Shown: positions 16,268 to 33,541 of the stretch, piece after piece
Layout: every line of letters begins with the position of its first letter
Numbering within the stretch: position 1 is the stretch's first letter
Assembly: GCA_029547025.1 (NCBI GenBank)
Contig: JAKPQA010000170.1
Span: 1-63,281, forward strand
Length of the DNA: 63,281 bases
Reading direction: 5' to 3'
Origin: Armatimonadota bacterium
Lineage (GTDB): Bacteria; Armatimonadota; Zipacnadia; UBA1398; JAKPQA01
Translations under genes and position numbers: made by a program
Notes under the pieces: model-generated
The model's input: only the letters and a program-made list of their open reading frames with translations
The model's database searches: none
What the model was told of the DNA's origin: nothing

Positions 16268-17374
16268 ATGCTCGCTCTGCGAGTCGCAAACATGGTTCTG
16301 GCATTGGGCACAGGGTTCGCCTCGGCGCAGACCTGGCAGATGGACGAGTTCATGATCGGAGGCTGGGGCGGGCCTGTCGATGAAGTCACGGCCAAGGCAT
16401 TCGTCGATGCCGGCTTCAACGCGTGCATGGGCAAGGTCGAGCACCTCGAGCTGTGCCGAGCGCACGGGCTGAAGGCCATCCTGTTCGACGCCACCCCCGA
16501 GTTCGCCAGGGAGCACCAGGGCGACGAGGCCATCTGGGGCTACTACGTGCAGGACGAACCCAAGCCGGAGCAGTTCGTCGAGGCCGGACAGCGGCTCGCC
16601 GCGTTTCAGGAGGCCGACCCCACGCATCCGGGGTACATCAATCTGATGTCTTGGATGCCGATCGCCAATTACTTCGAAGCCGTGCCCGCACGCTTTCTGA
16701 GCTATGACTACTACCAGTGGTGGTGGGGGACCGCGAACCACTTCACCCAGCTCGCGGCCTACCGCCAGGGGGCGCTGGACGCCAAGGTCCCGCTCATCTG
16801 CTGGGTTGAAGCCAATGCCGACAAGCGCTATGAATGGGGTGAAGCCGGTGCCGGCTACCTCCCCGACAACAAGGCCAAGCTGCGGCAGAGCGTGTTCACG
16901 GCCCTCGCTTACGGGATGAAGGGCATTCAGTGGTTCACCACTGGGCTGGTGTTCAACCAGGATGGTTCCCTCACCGAGTCGGGCAAGGACGTCCAAGCCA
17001 TCAACGCCTCCCTCCGAATGCTGGGGCCCATCCTCATCCGGCTCCGGTCGGATGCGGTGTGGCAGACGGAGCCTTTGCCCCTCGCCGGCGAGCCGCTGCC
17101 CGCCGCGGGGCCAGTCGCCACGGAGTCCCCCGACCTCGTCATCGGCTCTCTGGTCGACGATGCCGACAGGTCCCGCTACCTGCTCGTCGTCAACCGCGCG
17201 GTCGACCGAGCCCAACTGGCCGACGTGACCCTTCGCGGCCTGTCGGCCGGCGCCGAACGGCTCGACCTTCACACGGGCAGATGGCGCGATCTGGGCCGCC
17301 CGGCCGAGGATGGCACGCTCCGTACCGAACTCCGGCTCGACGCAGGTGACGGCAAGCTGCTGCGGGTGCGCTGA
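16268..17374 (+). CDS. Secreted glycoside-hydrolase-like TIM barrel protein
   Basis: ATG 16268, 8 nt after GGGAGG, yields 368 residues beginning with a classical signal peptide (MLALRVANMVLALGTGFASA|Q). The barrel shows ITs beta-strand/loop landmarks AIWGYYVQDEPKPEQF (a carboxylate-bearing DEP motif common in uncharacterised secreted glycosidases), FLSYDYYQWWWG and GMKGIQWFTTG. A small C-terminal beta domain follows (YLLVVNRAVDRAQLADVTL). The enzymatic reaction is not known. The layout recalls beta-galactosidase-like proteins, with the Glu in DEP as a plausible catalytic residue by analogy only. It is a single-gene unit, and the downstream 276 nt hold a repeat copy and a promoter rather than a gene. 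Confidence 0.75.
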   Translation: MLALRVANMVLALGTGFASAQTWQMDEFMIGGWGGPVDEVTAKAFVDAGFNACMGKVEHLELCRAHGLKAILFDATPEFAREHQGDEAIWGYYVQDEPKPEQFVEAGQRLAAFQEADPTHPGYINLMSWMPIANYFEAVPARFLSYDYYQWWWGTANHFTQLAAYRQGALDAKVPLICWVEANADKRYEWGEAGAGYLPDNKAKLRQSVFTALAYGMKGIQWFTTGLVFNQDGSLTESGKDVQAINASLRMLGPILIRLRSDAVWQTEPLPLAGEPLPAAGPVATESPDLVIGSLVDDADRSRYLLVVNRAVDRAQLADVTLRGLSAGAERLDLHTGRWRDLGRPAEDGTLRTELRLDAGDGKLLRVR

Positions 17375-17484
17375 GTGCCCCGCCGAGCTGAGCGATCTCG
17401 GTGGCACGGGCGCCGGCCGCATGAACTCGGGTACGTATGGCCGCGGGCTGTGGGGACGAACGGCGCCCGAGCGGAGTAGCAGCC

Positions 17485-17525
17485 GTGTCGGTCTGAGTGC
17501 CGCGCCTGCGGCGCGAAGGATGTCG
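17485..17525 (+). repeat. Degenerate copy of the CCTGAG...GCGAAGGAT dispersed repeat
   Basis: The segment reads as a diverged version of the element at 40654-40695: GTCTGAGTGCCGCGCCTGCG followed by GCGCGAAGGATGTCG. About 60 nt further left both copies also share GGGTACGTATG, so the related tract may be about 120 nt long. It occupies the 17375-17650 gap, which has no convincing gene. Confidence 0.55.
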
Positions 17526-17613
17526 ACGCTGGGATCCTCAGGCTGACACCCCAGGCCCAGTATGGGCCCCGGCATACCGACTGACCGCTCTCCGGCCTCG
17601 AGCATCCAGCTCG

Positions 17614-17643
17614 TTGGCACGGTCGTTCACCCGGTGCTACAAT
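17614..17643 (+). promoter_or_regulatory. Sigma70-like promoter TTGGCA-N18-TACAAT
   Basis: The -35 TTGGCA (17614-17619) and -10 TACAAT (17638-17643) are each five of six matches to consensus, with an 18-nt spacer. The ATG of the PEP-CTERM ORF begins only 8 nt after the -10, so transcription would start at or within a base or two of the start codon, giving a leaderless mRNA. This is a sequence-only prediction. Confidence 0.5.
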
Positions 17644-17650
17644 CCAGAGC

Positions 17651-18019
17651 ATGCCGCTTAGGGAACTCCCGCCCACGACGCGGTCACTCATGTTGGGTGC
17701 CGACGAGGTGGGTCATGTGGTGGACCTGGAGTTGGGTCCGGGGGTGTATCTCGACGATGGGCGCAGCGAGGCTGACTTCGAAGCCGATCTGGAAGCCTAC
17801 TGGAGCGATCCCTATCATTTCGGGGTCCCGACCGGCTCGCCGTTGTCTGCCACGTTCTGCCTGGACCTGATGCTCGCGGGGTCGGGAGCCTGGGACATCC
17901 ACTACGACGGTGAGGTGTGGGCCCAGGAGAGCCGCACGCCGGAGCCGGGGGTTGCAGCGCTGCTCGCCTTCGCCGGGTGTGTGCGGCTCGTGGCGCGCCG
18001 AAGACGCCGGGCCGACTGA
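17651..18019 (+). CDS. Short PEP-CTERM protein lacking a signal peptide
   Basis: The 122-residue ORF ends in a textbook PEP-CTERM tail: TPEPGVAALLAFAGCVRLV followed by a six-residue basic run. In other bacteria such tails direct membrane sorting and cleavage by an exosortase (XrtA/EpsH family), which is not in this window. The body (GVYLDDGRSEADFEADLEAY; WDIHYDGEVW) matches nothing recognised. PEP-CTERM proteins normally also need an N-terminal signal peptide, and none is present here. It may therefore be a 5'-truncated remnant, or its true start may be elsewhere. A strong predicted promoter abuts the ATG. No Shine-Dalgarno is visible. Confidence 0.6.
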   Translation: MPLRELPPTTRSLMLGADEVGHVVDLELGPGVYLDDGRSEADFEADLEAYWSDPYHFGVPTGSPLSATFCLDLMLAGSGAWDIHYDGEVWAQESRTPEPGVAALLAFAGCVRLVARRRRRAD

Positions 18020-18109
18020 CTGTGGGCGGTGCCGAGGCCGAGGACTGTGCCCCGTGTGGGGTAGTTCGCGCACCCGGGCCCGTCCAGGGCCTCGGCGCCC
18101 TCGTCTGCC

Positions 18110-18763
18110 CTACGGCACCGCCTTCTCGATGAGAACGAGAACAGTCCATCCGCCTGTGAAGCGAGTCCCCGGCCCGAAGCCGTCGTCACCCGTGCCCGTG
18201 CCCCTACCGTCGCGCGAGTGCAGCGGCAAGGGGTAGTTCAGCCAGTGCTCGCTTGTGCCGGGCCACGGGGAGTCGAACCCAAGCACGTCGGCCATGTTCC
18301 AGCCCGAGGTCAGCTCGAGCTTCTTGCCGTCCGGGGTGAGGGGCTTGATGGAGGCAATGACCGACCACTCGTGCTTGCCGTCGCCGGTCACGCCCTTGAC
18401 CGCCACGGGGTTGGAGCCCGGCTTCATACACATGCTGTACACGGGCCCAACGGTGGCCACGAGCCCGGGATGGATCTTGGGTCCGTATGCCTCGGCCAGG
18501 GCCACGCGGTCGTAGAAACCGTCACCATCCTCGGGCGCGAAGGAGAACGCCCCCGAACGGACATCGGCGAACTCGCGCGGGTCTAGGCCCTCCGCTACAC
18601 TCACTGTGATGATCCGGAACGAGACCACGTAGGCCGCCGGAGCCTCGGGCTCCTGCGGCTGGTCCTGCGCCCCCGCGGGCAGGCAGACTGTGGCGGCCAT
18701 GGCCACGATGGCGACGGCAACAGCGGTTCGGCGGACGAGCTCTACGATGCTCGGAGACCACAT
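18110..18763 (-). CDS. Exported protein of unknown function
   Basis: ATG 18763 follows GAGGGGAG by 9 nt and begins a clear signal peptide (RRTAVAVAIVAMAATVCLPAGA|Q). The mature about 185 residues (PAAYVVSFRIITVSVAEGLD, VYSMCMKPGSNPVAVKG, GTRFTGGWTVLVLIEKAVP) look like a small beta-rich domain. The opening strand and the late GTRFTGGWTVLVLI faintly recall outer-membrane secretin or TonB-adjacent strands, but this is not enough to assign a family. The next gene upstream on the same strand (18849) is also a small exported protein 86 nt away, so the two may form an operon. Confidence 0.68.
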   Translation of the reverse strand: MWSPSIVELVRRTAVAVAIVAMAATVCLPAGAQDQPQEPEAPAAYVVSFRIITVSVAEGLDPREFADVRSGAFSFAPEDGDGFYDRVALAEAYGPKIHPGLVATVGPVYSMCMKPGSNPVAVKGVTGDGKHEWSVIASIKPLTPDGKKLELTSGWNMADVLGFDSPWPGTSEHWLNYPLPLHSRDGRGTGTGDDGFGPGTRFTGGWTVLVLIEKAVP

Positions 18764-18848
18764 GCTGGCACGCTCCCCTCTAGGATGCGCGGGCAGTGGC
18801 GGTCTCTGGCCTGCCGCTGCCCGCGCAAGGCAGCCTATCGCTGCTCGG

Positions 18849-19425
18849 CTACGGCGCTGGGGTGTTGATCTGGGTCACGTCCGAATCCCCCTGGACTTCC
18901 TCGCCCATCGCGTACTGCTTGTCGGGGTCCGCCGGAGGTGCGGGCGGAGGGGGTGGGTACTGCACCGAGCAGACGTCTGGCCTTGCGGTCGTCGCGGCCA
19001 CGAACGCATAGGATCGGGGACCCGAGTCCGGTGGGATGTACCAGGACTTGAGGATCGGGTTCGGGGAGGAGTACATCGTCACGGCCGCATTCCGCGTGTA
19101 GGTGTACTGGTAGTGGCCATTCGAGACCCGGTCGCTCTGCGCCCAGGAGGGATACTGCTCCCAGTCGAGCCGGAGCCTGCATGGCAGGTAGTTCGCTTGC
19201 GAGGTGTTGAACACGGCTTTGTGTTGCGTAGCACCGGTCACGAGCTGGCCTGCCGCATACGTGCCCGTGGTCGGCGAGAAGACCTTCGATGTGACGAGCA
19301 CCACTGTGGGTAGGACAACCTGAGCCGAGCACATGGTGCTTGTCATCACCAACAAAGCCAGCGCAGCGACGAGGGTCCCAGGCCAAGATACCGGGGAACT
19401 AGCTCTCTCTCTCTCTCTTGGTCAT
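18849..19425 (-). CDS. Exported proline-tailed protein with an out-of-frame start: candidate phase-variable gene
   Basis: The main frame (18849 to about 19420) encodes an exported protein whose signal peptide reads ASSPVSWPGTLVAALALLVM then TSTMCSA|Q. The mature part includes SQANYLPCRLRLDWEQYPSW and a PPPPPAPPADPD tail. That frame has no usable start before the signal peptide; the nearest is a weak in-frame TTG at 19355, inside the hydrophobic core. A well-formed start exists at ATG 19425..19423 (AAGGGATGGAG upstream, promoter at 19485-19514), followed by MTKRERE. It reads into eight AG units and then hits a stop. One added AG unit, or two lost, would join MTKRERER to the signal peptide. Read as sequenced, the gene is in an OFF state or the repeat is miscounted. 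Function unknown. Confidence 0.65.
19403..19418 (-). repeat. (AG)8 dinucleotide tract after the start codon (CT on plus strand)
   Basis: Eight CT units on the plus strand (AG on the coding minus strand) sit 5 nt after ATG 19425..19423. Dinucleotide tracts of this kind slip during replication, and each unit changes the reading frame of the signal peptide that follows. No comparable microsatellite was noticed elsewhere in this GC-rich window. Confidence 0.9.
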
Positions 19426-19484
19426 TCAACTCCATCCCTTCAGCGCGTGATCGCCATAGCTTATGACACCAACACAGGCAGGTA

Positions 19485-19514
19485 ACCATACGGCCTGGAC
19501 GACCTGTTGGTCAA
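19485..19514 (-). promoter_or_regulatory. Sigma70-like promoter for the AG-repeat gene
   Basis: On the minus strand TTGACC (19514..19509) and TATGGT (19490..19485) are separated by 18 nt. Transcription would begin near 19478, about 50 nt before ATG 19425, leaving room for the AAGGGATGGAG ribosome site. This supports ATG 19425 as the intended start of the repeat-containing gene. Confidence 0.5.
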
Positions 19515-19623
19515 GTAGTCTATAGGTCGGTGCGAAGCCGATGAACGCAGCCCCCCCACCCAGGGATCCGCCACGGCACCGCGAACCCTTCCGCGAGAGA
19601 CCACCCGGGACGGGAGAGACGCC

Positions 19624-21597
19624 ATGAACTGGTACGCGCGCGTCACGCGGAAGATGCACTTCGACATGCACACTCCGACTGCCGTGGAGGACGTGGGAGT
19701 CGACTTCGACGCCGAGCGGTTCGCCGACGAACTCGAGGCCGCCGGTGTCGAGGCCATCTGCTTCTTCGCCAAGTGCGCCTACGGCTGGAGCTACTACCCC
19801 ACCCGGGTGGGCCGCAGGCACCCCCACCTGGTTACCGATACCTTCCCGCCCGCGGTCGACGCCTGCCATCGGCGTGGTATCCGCGTGCTCGGCTACTACC
19901 ACGTCAGCGGATGCGAGTGGGCCGGCGATCACCCCGAGTGGCATGGCCGCAACGCCGACGGCTCCTCGCAGGGCGACGGCTCGATCCCCTACTCACTTTG
20001 CCCCATCGGCCCGGCCAGCGACGAGCTCATCATCCCTCAGTTGGTCGAGATTGTGACCCTCCAGCCCGCCGACGGCCTGTTCCTCGATGACCTCATCGGC
20101 TGGAAGACCTGCTACTGCGAGTCCTGCCGCGCCGGCTTCGGCCGCACCATGCCGGCTGGGCCGGCCGACGAGGGGTGGGATGACTACCTGGCTTGGCGCC
20201 GTGCCGCGGCGTCAGCGTTTTTCGGGCGCGCGGCCGCGGCCGTCCATGCCGCGCGGCCCGATGCCCTGTTCGGCGTCAACTACGCGGGTTCGTACCGGCA
20301 CCCGGACTTCCTGCCCCCGGGCCTCGACTACCTTACGGCCGATGTGCCCGAGCCCGAAAGCAGCTCACTCAACGCCAGCCTCCTGCTCCGCCAGCACGCG
20401 ACCCAGCCATTGCCGTGCGATGCCATGAACTCGCGCATGGTGCACTGGTGGGCCGACTGGACCCAGAAGCCCGTCACGGCCATCCGGCAAGAGTTTGCCA
20501 CCGTGCTCGCCAACGGCGGCACGACGTTCCTCGGCGACATCTGCTATCACCGCACTGCCATGCCCGATCCCGCCGTGCTCGCCAATGCGGGCCGGGCATT
20601 CGCCCTCGCACGCGAGGTCGAGCCGTGGGTCCACGACGCCGAGCCGGTCCCCGACATCGCCATCCTCAACAGCGCCGCGTCTCACTATTTGTCGTCGCGG
20701 AGCCCGAACGCCGACCCAGTTCCCGTCAAGGGCGTCCATCTGGCGCTGCTCGAGGCGGGCTTGCACACCCACATCCTCACCGAGGCGACCCTGGCAGAGC
20801 ATCTGCCGGCCTACCGGGGCCTGGTGGTGCCCGAGCAGGCCCACATCTCCGCGCAGGCGTGCAATGCCATACGCGAGTTCGTGCGCGCCGGCGGCGGGCT
20901 TGTCGTCGTCGGTGACTCGCCTCTCGCCGATATCCTCGGCGTTGAGCGCATCGGGACATTCGACGACGACCGCGCCTACCTCGTGTGTGAAGCGCCCGAC
21001 CTGTCCCCGCGCGACGAGGCCGCTTGCCCTCCCCGGCTCGTCCATGGCCGGGGCATCCGAGTGCGGCCCACGACCGCCGAGGTGCTGGCACCCCACGTGG
21101 CGCCGTTGGGGGGCGGGCCGCCTCACTCGGGCCCACCCCCTGACAGACCCAGCGGCGATCCGGCCATCACCCTCAATGACTATGGGGGCGGCCGGGCTGC
21201 ACTGGTCGCCCTCCCCGTGGCCACTGACTACTTCGGTCGAGGGCACGCGGCGCTCGCGCCGCTCATGGCGGGCCTCGTTCGCCGGGTCTGCACACCCCTG
21301 GTCGAGGTCCGCACTCCGGCACCCGTCGAGGTGTCGCTGCTGCGCCGGGGATCCTCTCTGCTGGTCCATCTGGTGAACTATACGGCTTCACGCCACCCGG
21401 GCCGGCCGGCCACCGTCGACCACATCACGCCCGTGCACGAGGTGGTCGTACGCCTACGCCTCGCAGGAGAGCCGCACTTGGTGGGCGGCAGCGATGAGGC
21501 TTGGGCGGCCGTCCAAGTTGAGGGCGGGCTGGACCTGGTGCTGCCACGTCTGGACCTGTGGGCCTGCGCTGAGGTGAGTCTGGCCGGGGCCCCGTAG
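19624..21597 (+). CDS. Glycoside-hydrolase-like protein with beta-galactosidase trimerisation-type domain (GHL6-like)
   Basis: ATG 19624 follows GGGAGAG. The 657-residue protein starts NWYARVTRKMHFDMHTP, a motif of the hypothetical glycosyl hydrolase 6 group and its fucosidase-like relatives. The barrel has RGIRVLGYYHVSGCEW, DGLFLDDLIGWKTCYCESC (an acidic strand end plus a CxxC-like loop) and WTQKPVTAIRQEFATVLANG. Residues about 345-450 form a Rossmann-like domain (VKGVHLALLEAGLHTHIL, AYRGLVVPEQAHIS) like the trimerisation domain of GH42 enzymes. No signal peptide is present, so it probably acts in the cytoplasm on imported sugars, or uses an unusual export route. The reaction is unassigned. 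Confidence 0.8.
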   Translation: MNWYARVTRKMHFDMHTPTAVEDVGVDFDAERFADELEAAGVEAICFFAKCAYGWSYYPTRVGRRHPHLVTDTFPPAVDACHRRGIRVLGYYHVSGCEWAGDHPEWHGRNADGSSQGDGSIPYSLCPIGPASDELIIPQLVEIVTLQPADGLFLDDLIGWKTCYCESCRAGFGRTMPAGPADEGWDDYLAWRRAAASAFFGRAAAAVHAARPDALFGVNYAGSYRHPDFLPPGLDYLTADVPEPESSSLNASLLLRQHATQPLPCDAMNSRMVHWWADWTQKPVTAIRQEFATVLANGGTTFLGDICYHRTAMPDPAVLANAGRAFALAREVEPWVHDAEPVPDIAILNSAASHYLSSRSPNADPVPVKGVHLALLEAGLHTHILTEATLAEHLPAYRGLVVPEQAHISAQACNAIREFVRAGGGLVVVGDSPLADILGVERIGTFDDDRAYLVCEAPDLSPRDEAACPPRLVHGRGIRVRPTTAEVLAPHVAPLGGGPPHSGPPPDRPSGDPAITLNDYGGGRAALVALPVATDYFGRGHAALAPLMAGLVRRVCTPLVEVRTPAPVEVSLLRRGSSLLVHLVNYTASRHPGRPATVDHITPVHEVVVRLRLAGEPHLVGGSDEAWAAVQVEGGLDLVLPRLDLWACAEVSLAGAP

Positions 21598-33446: not shown

Positions 33447-33541
33447 GAGTCTCCCGGCGCCTGGAGCTCGCGGGTTCCTCCCGGCACCCCTTCGCAACCC
33501 GGCCCATGGGTCCCTGGAGCCTCAAGATACCGCCAATGCAC

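Follow-up and report, generated by a model that had tools for sequence, protein, structure and literature searches.

A putative slipped-strand translational switch shared by three paralogous operons of an Armatimonadota genome

Repeat switches at start codons are known mainly from pathogens; the repeat is a tetranucleotide in the lic2A-type loci of Haemophilus influenzae and a pentanucleotide near the 5′ end in the opa genes of Neisseria. In the oipA (hopH) gene of Helicobacter pylori, a CT-dinucleotide repeat lies in the 5′ part that encodes the signal peptide, 5–11 CT units are found among the patterns, and a change in unit number shifts the frame (PMC10564699). At lic2A-type loci, several starts lie upstream of the repeat, and their different frames can grade expression (PMC4235727), and the opa loci of Neisseria are subject to phase variation (PMC5953494).

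The locus analysed here lies in a window of 63,281 nucleotides, which is contig C202 of an Armatimonadota genome. Its gene A resembles oipA in that a tract of the same AG/CT dinucleotide type occupies the 5′ signal-peptide region of a gene for a predicted exported protein. Unlike in oipA, the tract stands right 3′ of the ATG, the host belongs to the environmental Armatimonadota, and the change in length is a proposal of the present study. The two genes are also unrelated by sequence family: A had no Pfam match above chance level, and hence none to the outer-membrane families Hop (oipA) of H. pylori or Opa of Neisseria. As in lic2A-type loci, two starts (ATG_a and ATG_b) precede the repeat in different frames, whereas the lic2A-type gene encodes a glycosyltransferase of a host-restricted pathogen, and one paralog of A (C295, named like the others by its contig) has lost the second start. 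The dispersed paralogs of A, each bearing a separate repeat close to its 5′ end, recall the opa genes, in which such an arrangement gives independent switching and combinations, although opa products are beta-barrel adhesins and not homologous to A. Hence, the mechanism itself is known from oipA-like genes of H. pylori, and within the literature searched the protein family and the phylum are new for it. The initial annotation of this DNA had regarded such a structure as unexpected in this kind of genome, and indeed our literature search gave no paper joining Armatimonad* and phase variation.

On the minus strand, the window reads GAAGGGATGGAGTTGAATGACCA(AG)8CTAGTTCC... at this locus, and translation from the ATG at 19425 gives MTKRERERELVPRYLGLGPSSLRWLCW and then meets a stop. 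This ATG (MTKRERE...) is out of frame with the signal-peptide ORF ending at 18849, whose frame is shifted by +1 from it (Table 1). The start, the (AG)8 and the ORF are present as the initial annotation had described them, with start and ORF in different frames, and its statement that one unit added or two removed would restore the frame agrees with the lengths at which the main start is in frame. It had also described the start region as intact; a promoter and a ribosome-binding site were found there, but the second ATG had been overlooked. In alignment, ATG_b falls on the start codon of C49, a paralog without a tract, and ATG_a is also present in paralog C298, with ACG in its place in C295. 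With both starts, two of the three phases could be open at C202. The mature frame of C202 contains no ATG, GTG or TTG before the hydrophobic core, the first such codon (TTG 19355) lying inside the core, and no NTG start 3′ of the tract preserves the signal core. Cleavage of the signal peptide is probably after CSA, as judged by inspection. A comparable tract was absent from all 100 shuffles of the window, and Rfam gave no match at window positions 17000–21000.

Table 1. Features of the gene A–gene B locus in the window (n, number of AG units)
Feature	Coordinates	Strand	Remarks
Gene A, secreted Ig-like protein (predicted)	18849..19425	-	assembled state out of frame with its own ATG; structure model pLDDT 76
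(AG)8 tract, proposed slippage switch	19403..19418	-	pattern scan, shuffles
ATG_b, main start codon	19423..19425	-	in frame with mature ORF at n = 6, 9, 12
ATG_a, second start codon overlapping ribosome site	19433..19435	-	in frame at n = 7, 10
TGA overlapping ATG_b (ATGA)	19422..19424	-	closes mature frame upstream of tract
GGAG ribosome-binding site	19430..19433	-	4 nt before ATG_b
Sigma-70-type promoter TTGACC-18-TATGGT	19485..19514	-	sole promoter match in region
Signal peptide region	19323..19422	-	hydrophobic core LVAALALLVMT at 19341-19373
Gene B, secreted partner (predicted)	18110..18763	-	85 nt downstream of A

The whole genome (6.3 Mb, a draft of 369 contigs) was scanned for similar tracts. 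Repeats of (AG)8 or longer occurred at only three places, which are C202 (n = 8), C295:15246-15265 (n = 10) and C298:56696-56711 (n = 8), and the same three places were returned when the threshold was lowered to (AG)6. Every one of these tracts stands directly 3′ of the start codon in a paralog of gene A. A first-order Markov estimate gives about 0.003 (AG)8 and about 0.7 (AG)6 per genome; the C202 tract is far beyond chance, and the three tracts exceed the genome background and recur in one family. With 8, 10 and 8 units in the 5′ coding region, all three tracts reach the cut-off of at least 8 units for dinucleotide repeats of phase-variable genes, which was taken from PMC5953494. Elsewhere in the class (45 further genomes), (AG)6+ tracts were rare, short and scattered at unrelated places with no common position. 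One of them, an (AG)7 in genome G042 (L041:1501-1514), precedes a predicted lipoprotein gene (MMSVRSC...LVVGGCSG), at about 40 nt from its start, and could be an independent 5′-UTR repeat; another, an (AG)8 in genome G025 (L045:115-130), is near a contig end and has no obvious relation to a start codon.

Two other repeat types, (AC)6 and G10+, were sampled by pattern. The search found no (AC)6 in the genome and only four G10+ runs (L056, L057, L058 and L059), none of which resembles a start-codon switch by eye. One of these runs (C116:38936) is directly 3′ of a dispersed element beside the A paralog of C116, and another, on C288, lies within what appears by eye to be a reading of a KaiC/RecA-type ATPase.

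When the ORF of C202 was used as query, four paralogs were found in the genome, on C295 (63% identity), C298 (55%), C49 (44%) and C116 (32%). The three paralogs with tracts share 55–63% amino acid identity, and the two without tracts, C49 and C116, begin with ordinary starts in frame. Among the tract paralogs, four-fold sites are 35–39% identical versus 31–33% expected at random, and NG86 estimates gave dS >1.4, dN of 0.31–0.39 and dN/dS of about 0.2–0.28. Near-random identity at four-fold sites, high dS and low dN therefore indicate that these are old copies, near-saturated at silent sites, whose coding parts are under purifying selection. Despite this divergence, all 26 AG units (52 bases) of the three tracts are perfect. 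In each of the three, the -10 box ends at -66 relative to the tract, a -35 box of TTGAC- or TTGC-type precedes the -10 box by 16–18 nt, and the GGAG...GAATGA segment is kept, with no recognisable likeness in the alignment of the remaining intergenic DNA.

In the assembly, the three tracts differ in phase. C202 (n = 8) lacks an in-frame start; C295 (n = 10) has no in-frame ATG and only TTG or CTG 3′ of the tract; in C298 (n = 8), ATG_a is in frame and ATG_b is out of frame. A phase table for n = 5–12 indicates that gaining or losing units switches an intact ORF into and out of frame with an intact start, less cleanly in C295, in which a plausible signal peptide could begin at a TTG 8 nt past the tract whatever n is. 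Internal stops are absent from A and B at the tract loci. A switching locus would show just this pattern, in which promoter, ribosome site and repeat are kept and phase is not.

We consider it likely that the (AG)8 acts as a slipped-strand (simple-sequence-repeat) translational phase switch and belongs to a small contingency family of three paralogous A–B operons. This reading is supported because all (AG)6+ tracts fall in one paralog family, the coding parts are under selection, and promoter and ribosome site are kept while the phase is not. What the initial annotation had guessed from a single locus is thus backed by three loci of a diverged family. According to our model, the number of 2-nt units separating the start codon from the signal peptide would rise or fall by slippage during replication, and A would be made and exported in one (from ATG_b) or two (from ATG_b or ATG_a) of the three phases. 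In the on phase, A would be exported from ATG_b, or from ATG_a at C202 and C298, where output from ATG_a would probably be lower owing to its poor spacing to the ribosome site. In the off phase, a short peptide and no A would be made, possibly with polarity on B. Tract length would then vary between cells, and this polarity would couple the regulation of B to that of A. The genome encodes MutS1, which would slow slippage of dinucleotides, and hence the switching rate may be modest; loss of mismatch repair as the origin of the repeats was rejected, MutS1 being present.

Several observations have to be weighed against a slipped-strand switch. Besides the presence of MutS1, the lack of length changes at the dinucleotide tracts of Neisseria (PMC5953494) counts against it, and its weakest point is the TTG 3′ of the tract in C295. 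This TTG, which yields a good signal peptide, would also suit a tract kept for another role, either as a purine-rich translation enhancer or standby site, as an Arg-Glu-rich beginning of the signal peptide, or as a site of programmed ribosomal or transcriptional slippage, with full protein made at any n. The position of the tract, always immediately 3′ of the start codon, and the weak likeness of AG runs to Shine–Dalgarno sequences point the same way. However, C202 offers no start past its tract comparable to that of C295, the tract-free paralogs start ordinarily, and Arg-Glu can be encoded without AGA, which is rare here (2.3% of Arg codons, 18 of 793 in the window genes counted), and we judge such a role unlikely. 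Programmed frameshifting as the main reading was rejected because the same shift would be expected in each copy, yet the shift needed from ATG_b differs between paralogs (+1 in C202 and C295, +2 in C298).

The fragmented state of the draft agrees with an assembly or sequencing miscount of tracts whose true lengths are fixed and in frame, and the initial annotation had noted that a miscount would look the same as a switch. But the same kind of error would be needed independently at two or three loci, and it leaves unexplained both the confinement of long AG tracts to one gene family and the purity of the tracts at near-saturated divergence. A miscount at one locus does not explain a pattern of three loci, and we regard a miscount as very improbable. 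It is hardly credible that the out-of-frame copies are decaying pseudogenes: two of the three copies lack an in-frame ATG, as decay might produce, but neither A nor B contains internal stops, dN/dS is well below one at the values given above, and promoter and ribosome site are conserved. From the conserved elements, purifying selection and unconserved frame taken together, pseudogenes, miscounts and programmed frameshifts therefore fit poorly, and a selected slipped-strand family fits best.

The pair of genes appears to be confined to this lineage. A pattern scan of 84,980 GTDB r220 genomes gave no relatives of A, nor were any found in IMG/VR; in the 45 class genomes (the class has 46 species in our genome set) and in 290 phylum genomes there were none that convinced, the marginal matches carrying stops or spanning short stretches. 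For B, convincing relatives were likewise absent from the class genomes, the phylum genomes and IMG/VR. The divergent neighbour of A (19624-21597) encodes a GHL6-type glycosyl hydrolase according to Pfam, and its sole matches, at 70% identity, were in two Armatimonadetes MAGs named K_DeepCast, which we take to come from Lake Tanganyika; on this basis the genome most likely belongs to the Armatimonadota. Among the window genes compared, the glycosyl hydrolase was the only one in common with these two relatives, and neither A nor B was present in their compared flanks. The host lineage is presumed to be free-living.

On balance, and with less assurance than for the switch itself, we favour the view that an uncultured, presumably free-living member of the Armatimonadota carries a multi-locus slipped-strand contingency family, in which three dispersed operons for a lineage-specific secreted Ig-like protein and a secretin-like partner would take combinatorial states. 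If so, a small phasome would exist beyond host-associated bacteria, with phages or predators, and not host immunity, as its possible shaping force. A family with repeats at three loci in an environmental phylum offers a direct test case. Such a lineage-specific exported pair would be worth switching off in part of the population; a phage receptor or an exposed structure may be imagined, which is speculative.

About 150–160 residues make up the mature A protein, which is predicted to contain a beta-sandwich domain and also has a proline-rich linker and, at its C-terminus, a conserved motif. Its structure model is an Ig-like beta sandwich, for which PDB matches were weak and generic (arrestin or Ig-like). 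A hydrophobic signal segment is present in all five A paralogs, and A may be surface-exposed or secreted. Of the five A loci, four (C202, C295, C298 and C49) have B next to A, and a further copy of B is on C12. B appears to be a small, single-domain, secretin-like protein with a predicted signal peptide (paralogs L032-L036). In a comparison of its fold with the PDB, the 12 best matches were without exception chains of the secretin from the Salmonella needle complex (E about 1e-4, probability 0.91–1.0), with TM of only 0.27–0.37; the Pfam secretin profile was not matched, and the single weak Pfam match was DEC-1_N.

In addition, a repeat element about 220 bp long is dispersed in the genome, at L036:2299-2558 (C12), L016:5708-5932 (C116), L013:7857-8081 (C295) and window positions 33469-33538, with 97% identity between C12 and C116 and 78–86% elsewhere. 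On C116 it stands in place of the C-terminal part of the A paralog; on C12 it is followed by the C-terminal end of an A gene (GDYTTWES...SQITVPSP) and then by the B gene. These junctions reflect either a rearrangement mediated by the element or sequences joined at the repeat during assembly.
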